Below are positions 4,218 through 5,510 of a stretch of DNA of 43,072 nucleotides, in pieces. Below the pieces are notes generated by a model. That model was not told the origin of the DNA and made no database searches. It was given only the letters and a program-made list of their open reading frames with translations. Source of the stretch: Synergistaceae bacterium (GTDB lineage: Bacteria > Synergistota > Synergistia > Synergistales > Aminobacteriaceae); NCBI GenBank assembly GCA_017454625.1, contig JAFTCP010000134.1, positions 1 through 43,072 of the forward strand, written 5' to 3'. Position numbers and translations under genes: made by a program. Numbering within the stretch: the stretch's first letter is position 1; the number at the start of each line of letters is the position of its first letter.

Positions 4218-4291
4218 CTCTCTTGAATTTGTGAAATGATTACAGTTAATGATAGAATAACAAAAAATTTTACCGAAAAGGAGCGTTGACA

Positions 4292-4430
4292 ATGACCGAA
4301 AAAATCGCTACAATGCGAACAGCGAACAGCGAACAGCGAACAGCCTAATTATTTCCCAAAATTAAGAGTATTATACATAGCGCATTACAACAGCTTAGGC
4401 GGAGGAGCAAACTTAGCACTTCTTCATACT
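4292..4430 (+). other. Out-of-frame 5' end of the glycosyltransferase gene (leader ORF 4292-4348)
   Basis: An ATG at 4292 sits behind AAAAGGAG with good spacing, but it reads only 18 codons, through the heptamer repeat, to a TAA at 4346-4348. The frame of the downstream glycosyltransferase is open from 4296 through 4430 and encodes the conserved N-terminus (KLRVLYIAHYNSLGGGAN), yet it contains no ATG, GTG or TTG before 4431. If one 7-base unit were absent, the ATG at 4292 would read straight through TANSEQPNYFPKLRV into the enzyme. The natural start is therefore 4292, and the gene is currently disrupted by the repeat number. Confidence 0.85.
4315..4342 (+). repeat. (GCGAACA)4 heptanucleotide tandem repeat inside the gene start
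   Basis: Four perfect copies of GCGAACA lie 23 bases after the first base of the ATG at 4292. Seven is not a multiple of three, so each gain or loss of a unit shifts the frame. Copy numbers divisible by three (3 or 6) put the ATG in frame with the glycosyltransferase; four copies give an early stop. Confidence 0.95.
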
Positions 4431-5510
4431 ATGCTCGACATGAAAAATCGCTACAACGTTGAACCTTCCGTATTAGTTCCTGGTGAGGGCGAACTCGCTG
4501 AAAAATGCCGTGAGAATGGAATTGAAGTTATTGTATCAAAAAGTTATCTATGGACTTACGAACGAAGGCTTAAGGTCAGAATTAAAGGCTTCGTGAAGGT
4601 CTTACTCAACAAGATATATTACGAAAGAAAAATTCTAAACTTGCTCAAGAATAAACACTTCGATATTGTTCACACAAATTCAAGCGTCATAGAAACAGGA
4701 AGCATCATAGCACAGAAACTTAACGTCCCTCACGTCTGGCACATCAGAGAATATGGCATTGACGACTATAACCTGTATTACTTGCCTCCGAAAAGTTACG
4801 TGAAAAAGCAATACTCCAAAGCCGCACAAATCATCACCATATCAAACTCAGTCTACAGCACATACGTTTACGGTTACGGTATAATCCCGGAAGAAAGTAC
4901 ACGAATAATATACAACGGTCTGAAAGTCCCTGAAGATTACACGAAAACTTACGCTCAAGATGGACGTGTCAATTTCTGCATTGTAGGGCTTTTATTTTCG
5001 GGAAAAAATCAGCTCACAGCGATAAAAGCCTGCGCAAAACTTAAAGCCTTTACCGATAAATTCATGCTTCATATAATCGGCAATGATAAGGGTGAATATC
5101 CCGACATGCTCAAAGATTATGTACATTCACACGGGCTGGATGATTTCGTTAAATTCTGGGGCTTTAGGTATGACGTGAACGAAATCTTGAAGACTATGGA
5201 TGTCGGATTAATGCTGTCTAGACGTGAAGCCTTCGGACGTGTAACGGTTGAATACATGTTGAACTATATGCCCGTAATCGGCGTGAACTCCGGCGCAACT
5301 CCTGAGATTGTCGATGACGGCGTAACCGGCTATGTATGTCCGCTTAACGATGAGGAATATATCGCGGCAGTAATGAGAAAGTTCATAGATAATCCGGAGC
5401 TTTTATCCGAAATGGGAAATAAAGGACGCGAACGTGCCGTGAAAAACTTTTCGCTTGAACGTAACACTGATGAAATTTACTCGCTTTATCAGGAAATTCT
5501 GAGCCGATAA
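4431..5510 (+). CDS. GT4-family glycosyltransferase, N-terminus out of frame (phase-variable candidate)
   Basis: A GT-B fold retaining glycosyltransferase of family GT4, probably adding a sugar to a lipopolysaccharide or other surface glycan at the cytoplasmic membrane. The C-terminal nucleotide-sugar site is intact: the EX7E motif REAFGRVTVE is followed by IGVNSGATPEIVDDGVTGYV. The N-terminal half has KHFDIVHTNSSVIETG and HVWHIREYG. The ATG at 4431 is the first possible start in this frame, but it has no ribosome binding site and would remove about 30 residues, including the glycine-rich loop that binds the donor. The real start is at 4292, in another frame because of the heptamer repeat. 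The full enzyme would have about 400 residues with one repeat unit fewer. No other glycan gene is adjacent except the DUF6625 gene 1 kb away. Confidence 0.9.
   Translation: MLDMKNRYNVEPSVLVPGEGELAEKCRENGIEVIVSKSYLWTYERRLKVRIKGFVKVLLNKIYYERKILNLLKNKHFDIVHTNSSVIETGSIIAQKLNVPHVWHIREYGIDDYNLYYLPPKSYVKKQYSKAAQIITISNSVYSTYVYGYGIIPEESTRIIYNGLKVPEDYTKTYAQDGRVNFCIVGLLFSGKNQLTAIKACAKLKAFTDKFMLHIIGNDKGEYPDMLKDYVHSHGLDDFVKFWGFRYDVNEILKTMDVGLMLSRREAFGRVTVEYMLNYMPVIGVNSGATPEIVDDGVTGYVCPLNDEEYIAAVMRKFIDNPELLSEMGNKGRERAVKNFSLERNTDEIYSLYQEILSR

Follow-up and report, generated by a model that had tools for sequence, protein, structure and literature searches.

Why should a conserved glycosyltransferase gene be found in a reading frame that has no start codon where the enzyme begins? 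This question is raised by a locus at positions 4292-5510 of a stretch of 43,072 nucleotides from a Synergistaceae bacterium (GCA_017454625.1, contig JAFTCP010000134.1), which is termed the window in its full length. Here a short open reading frame (ORF) runs into a heptanucleotide array and stops, and the frame of a GT4 glycosyltransferase (GT) continues out of phase with it. The anatomy of the sequence indicates that this is very probably a phase-variable contingency locus, which is OFF in the assembled majority sequence and uses a copy of a cassette that is employed genus-wide. The earlier note on this DNA had proposed such an OFF-state locus, and the anatomy supports the proposal well, with slippage as the presumed cause of switching. 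The cassette found across the genus, the promoter-like element that lies over the start codon and a second, apparently leader-coupled class of loci are additions to it.

Array and reading frames at the window locus

The window contains a perfect heptanucleotide array, and there is no second array as strong within its 43 kb. The elements of the locus are the following.

4250..4258, + strand: P1, candidate extended -10 box TGATAGAAT with a weak -35, putative promoter for the translated mRNA; sister loci have TATAAT upstream of the Shine-Dalgarno (SD) sequence
4276..4283, + strand: SD sequence AAAAGGAG, 8 nt ahead of ATG 4292; its AAAGG is within the genus-wide composite motif
4286..4291, + strand: P2 -35-like TTGACA between SD and start codon, rare in that interval among SD-bearing ORFs of the genome
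4292..4348, + strand: ATG-initiated ORF, 18 codons plus TAA at the present four units
4309..4314, + strand: P2 -10-like TACAAT, 17 nt past TTGACA, abutting the array; the TACAAT-GCGAACA join is also seen in L215, L217 and L220
4315..4344, + strand: heptanucleotide array (GCGAACA)4.29, the putative switch
4345..4361, + strand: linker in the GT frame, NYFPK, conserved in orthologues G005, G026 and G034
4350..5510, + strand: GT4 glycosyltransferase frame (PF00534, PF13439), present state predicted OFF

The array begins 23 nt past ATG 4292, and at its present length of four units it leads the ORF into TAA 4346-4348 after 18 codons; these numbers, given already in the earlier note, were correct on re-reading. 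The GT frame is open from 5' of the array through 5510, its 386 codons are conserved, and it contains the Pfam domains Glycos_transf_1 and Glyco_transf_4. According to frame arithmetic, 0, 3, 6 and 9 units give GT fusions of 396, 403, 410 and 417 aa, respectively, and 1, 2, 4, 5, 7 or 8 units give products of 11-33 aa only. In other words, the complete ORF is regained at every third unit number, and the earlier claim that 3 or 6 units join the ATG to the enzyme holds for 0 and 9 units likewise. The unit has a length that 3 does not divide, and the repeat lies inside the 5' end of the coding frame, as in other simple sequence repeats (SSRs) that switch frames. Between 4350 and 5510, the GT frame has no ATG, GTG or TTG ahead of 4431, as had been claimed, and ATG 4431 has no SD sequence. 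An enzyme started at this codon would lack its first strand and Gly-rich loop (YIAHYNSLGGGANLAL), i.e. the donor-loop region.

We propose that an mRNA from P1 would carry the SD sequence and ATG 4292, and that the number of GCGAACA units would fix the reading frame, giving the full GT4 at 0, 3, 6 or 9 units and otherwise a stop within ~35 codons. Slipped-strand mispairing would add or remove units and thereby toggle a predicted surface-glycan glycosyltransferase. The cassette stands before many putative surface-glycan genes and would act on them either by direct fusion, as in the window, or via a coupled leader ORF.

The locus was compared with four orthologues of the same genus (G005, G026, G034 and G037), which have 52-59% identity to the window GT4. 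Two of the four are from goat-rumen Synergistaceae metagenome-assembled genomes (MAGs), and the named members of the home genus are goat-rumen MAGs as well. The earlier note had named two outcomes that would speak against switching, i.e. exactly four units throughout related genomes, or a repeat-less homologue that starts at the equivalent of 4431. The orthologues are not uniform but differ in both heptamer and number: at the position of the array G005 has GCACAGA x 4.29 (its contig begins within the array), G026 has GACCGCA x 3, G034 has a degenerate remnant of ~1.7 units and G037 has no repeat. The protein of G037 starts with MRVLYI, which corresponds to ~4362 of the window and not to 4431, hence the natural N-terminus appears to lie upstream of 4431. 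Since the orthologues carry other heptamers, or none, at the same spot, the position of the array seems to be conserved while the unit has been replaced. The linker (NYSQKL or similar) is retained in the orthologues that bear a repeat or a remnant. Unit number and unit sequence thus both differ among relatives, as seen by comparing orthologues and sister loci between species. We note that a partial second copy of the N-terminal coding sequence (ATGCGAGTTCTATATATAACACATCAC) lies upstream of the repeat-less GT4 homologue (L017 1351-1500, G037:C69).

A genus-wide cassette with two promoter-like elements

Our sample of the home genome covers 523 kb of 2.47 Mb, some contigs being picked for glycosyltransferases, and it contains eight period-7 and two period-5 arrays. 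A chance origin of such arrays was rejected, as no period-7 array appeared in 293 kb of third-order Markov simulation, and 157 kb sampled from another genus had no array either. Loss of mismatch repair was rejected as their cause because MutS-family genes are present; loops of 5 and 7 nt exceed what MutS repairs well. The genes behind the arrays are a GT8-like enzyme (C3, unit GCGAACA x 3.29, in frame, i.e. ON), a methyltransferase (C1, OFF), a UbiA-family protein (C19) and a GT truncated by the contig end (C116); a GT4 (C64), a sugar transferase (C2) and an MBOAT acyltransferase (C165) are found behind a leader. Two of the eight period-7 arrays are array ends on separate contigs, C101 and C165 of G000. 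These ends have the same unit, CGCTTGT, in matching orientation, and the two contigs are probably neighbours that meet at an MBOAT gene with a repeat switch.

Directly 5' of the arrays there is a composite motif, AAAGGA-(1-5)-TTGACA-(15-18)-TATAAT, with the start codon usually located between the two hexamers. The order of the cassette is thus P1 -10 box, SD sequence AAAGGA, TTGACA, start codon, TATAAT, an array of 5- or 7-bp units, and the gene. The exact motif has ~128 sites in 30 out of 41 genomes of the genus, and the reversed control has 1. We read 91 distinct copies, taken from sampled stretches with one genome per species, and found a heptamer array in 62 and a pentamer array in 17 of them; the array starts -2 to +4 nt from the -10 box in 77/91. 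As this set was selected by the motif, arrays chosen without it were also examined. P2 (≤2 mismatches) is present at 8/13 of the arrays sampled in G000 and G030 and at 6/6 loci that were found only by the unit GCGAACA, i.e. at 14/19 motif-independent arrays vs 6/2000 random points.

Three simpler explanations of the motif were rejected. TTGACA ahead of the start codon is not a general trait of gene starts (2/386 SD-bearing ORFs in the home-genome sample); a phylum-wide promoter motif would not account for the few matches outside the genus, of which the 8 that were read all lack an array; and a conserved N-terminal peptide would not explain TATAAT, since its reading frame varies (YN, II, IM). 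Inverted repeats flanking the array showed no consistent pattern, judged by eye only.

The two promoter-like elements appear to have different roles. In the 45 nt that precede the SD sequence, 41/77 loci have an exact TATAAT vs ~5 in shuffles, with a cluster at 23-33 nt, and from this we infer that P1 makes the mRNA that carries the SD sequence and the start codon. P2, TTGACA-N17-TACAAT in the window, is a near-consensus sigma70-type sequence by prediction; it overlaps the start codon, ends at the first repeat base and is conserved across the genus. Transcripts from P2 would start inside the array and would have no start codon, hence the role of P2 is apparently not a coding one.

One TTGACA..TACAAT-GCGAACA cassette precedes the GT4 gene of the window, a GT2 (L220), a DUF4422 protein (L217) and an unassigned protein (L215), and the presence of an identical cassette before different genes points to a copying of cassettes from gene to gene. 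In G003 the unit GCGAACA occurs at four separate loci (C5, C111, C140 and C215), which suggests that repeat units spread within a genome. There are two further loci of note. L105 (G034:C213) has the composite motif without an array, followed by an open ORF of ~260 codons, and may be a cassette that is locked ON after loss of the repeat. At L036 14585-14604 (G000:C17) a pentamer, AAGAC x 4, with TTGACA-N16-CATAAT is located upstream of a lepA-like GTPase gene; this gene is non-surface, its start is ~118 nt downstream and its coupling is not obvious.

Two predicted switching classes and their genes

The loci were assigned to classes by simple ORF rules, the start being picked by codon rank at 6-19 nt from the SD sequence. 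In the fused class (29 loci, including the window) exactly one phase brings the start codon into frame with an ORF of at least 150 aa, and 10 out of 29 loci are ON at present. At the 39 loci of the leader class, the longest phase is a leader ORF of ~30-99 codons. In 36/39 cases the stop codon of this leader is no more than 10 nt away from the start of the next gene, as compared to 0/78 for the other phases, and an SD sequence is present at 35/39 loci. Since the leader stop meets the next start so regularly, we infer that leader-class loci work by translational coupling. Taking both classes together, the productive phase is found at 19/68 loci (~28%), and the chance expectation is one third (p = 0.42).

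Judging from Pfam, the downstream genes mostly encode glycan or surface enzymes. The window enzyme is a GT4, and sister loci have GT2, GT8, MBOAT, LicD, sugar transferase and polysaccharide export proteins; the downstream matches also comprise other GT4 proteins, GT61, GT56, Bac_transf, Acyl_transf_3, CDP-glycerol transferase as well as FkbM and other methyltransferases. Nitroreductase-domain proteins, unexpected amid glycan genes, follow four leader-type loci. The contigs tend to break at the arrays: 10/58 minus-strand motif sites are within 100 nt of the contig start, on the array side (binomial ~4e-11, with 0.8% assumed by chance), as would be expected if array lengths vary in the population or exceed the assembler word size.

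Known systems and alternative explanations

SSR phase variation is known mainly from host-adapted pathogens. The classical coding-region loci, lic and mod in Haemophilus and opa (CTCTT) in Neisseria, vary by slippage in repeats with a unit length not divisible by three, located early in surface genes. We know of no conserved -35/-10 pair abutting the repeat in these loci; a further difference is that the units of the cassette are 5 or 7 bp only. The hmw1A/hmw2A genes of Haemophilus influenzae have 7-bp repeats near the promoter, upstream of the ORF, which act on the transcript level. The likeness is a heptamer array near a promoter; the difference is that the window array is part of the ORF that begins with ATG 4292, and would be translated and act by frame. 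To our knowledge neither the overlap of promoter, start codon and array nor such a uniform genus-wide cassette has been described earlier. A full-text literature search gave nothing that combines Synergistaceae and phase variation, and the literature on Synergistetes and phase variation has, judged by title, nothing on SSR switching in that group.

The closest parallel is neuO of E. coli K1, located on the CUS-3 prophage, in which a heptanucleotide (AAGACTC) in the 5' coding region allows one repeat number in three to be ON (PMC13001214). Unit length and position match, and the frame would set the ON/OFF state of the putative surface-glycan gene of the window as it does for the surface-polysaccharide gene neuO; however, neuO is a single locus with 3-53 repeats that encodes an O-acetyltransferase, whereas the window has a GT4 and a cassette that stands before many genes with a promoter-like element over the start codon. 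In the pil1/pil3 loci of Streptococcus gallolyticus a GCAGA pentamer shifts the frame of a leader peptide that controls the downstream gene (PMC3894217). There the leader relieves a terminator hairpin, whereas the window array is joined directly to the GT frame and not placed in a separate leader ORF with a hairpin, and the leaders of the leader class stop at the next gene's start codon in 36/39 cases.

The parallel with pil1 offers transcription attenuation as an alternative to translational coupling at the leader-type loci. The shared logic, i.e. a repeat that alters the length of a leader (PMC3894217), speaks for it, and the leader regions are somewhat more structured than their shuffles (mean z -1.2). 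Nevertheless we regard attenuation as improbable, since T runs of at least 6 are found in only 8/39 leaders and the leaders end so consistently at the next start codon. It is very unlikely that expression is driven from P2, with the array as a 5' untranslated element that tunes transcript level or stability as in hmwA and the upstream ATG being irrelevant. P2 is closer to sigma70 than P1 at the window locus, and at leader-type loci an mRNA begun at P2 would still include the downstream gene and the SD sequence of that gene, but at the 29 fused loci such an mRNA would lack the start codon of the enzyme; moreover, translation from the upstream start codon is required both by the frame rule, in which one length in three is productive, and by the coincidence of leader stop with next start (36/39 vs 0/78). 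That the window gene is simply a frameshifted pseudogene with an incidental repeat, as the out-of-frame state of the assembled four-unit gene could suggest, is scarcely credible: 386 codons are open and conserved, repeat and leader are kept in orthologues though the unit sequence changes, and the share of sister loci in the ON state is close to the one third expected by chance.

Several points weigh against a phase-variable locus of the proposed kind. Unit numbers were compared between species only, with one genome each; an array of four units is short and switching could be slow; the surface-glycan target is deduced from the Pfam family of the predicted GT4; and two of the eight flanked home-genome arrays (C3 and C19) have no full P2, which indicates that P2 is not obligatory.

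The frame switch may have an additional component, a transcription-driven mutator, which we consider possible but unlikely. In most loci P2, a near-consensus sequence, reaches up to the first base of the array, and the open complex formed there (~-11 to +3) would separate the strands of the first unit. The array, when opened or transcribed, could then slip at a higher rate, which would make switching dependent on transcription and provide each genome with a built-in mutator at some tens of surface-gene loci. It fits this idea that P2 transcripts would have no start codon in either class, and that the GT4 orthologues keep the -35 hexamer while spacer and unit diverge. On the other hand, the arrays at C3 and C19 do without P2, P2 could be a passenger of cassette copying, and the argument is drawn from the arrangement of sequences.

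If the locus and its sister loci are phase-variable as proposed, an uncultured Synergistaceae genus with rumen members would possess a large and uniform set of SSR switches. The leader class would offer a second design, in which the frame of a leader ORF decides on coupling to the next gene. Such genes are prone to be annotated as truncated or broken, and assemblies tend to break in the arrays. Finally, the overlap of a consensus promoter, a start codon and a repeat raises the question whether promoter activity may set the mutation rate of a contingency repeat.
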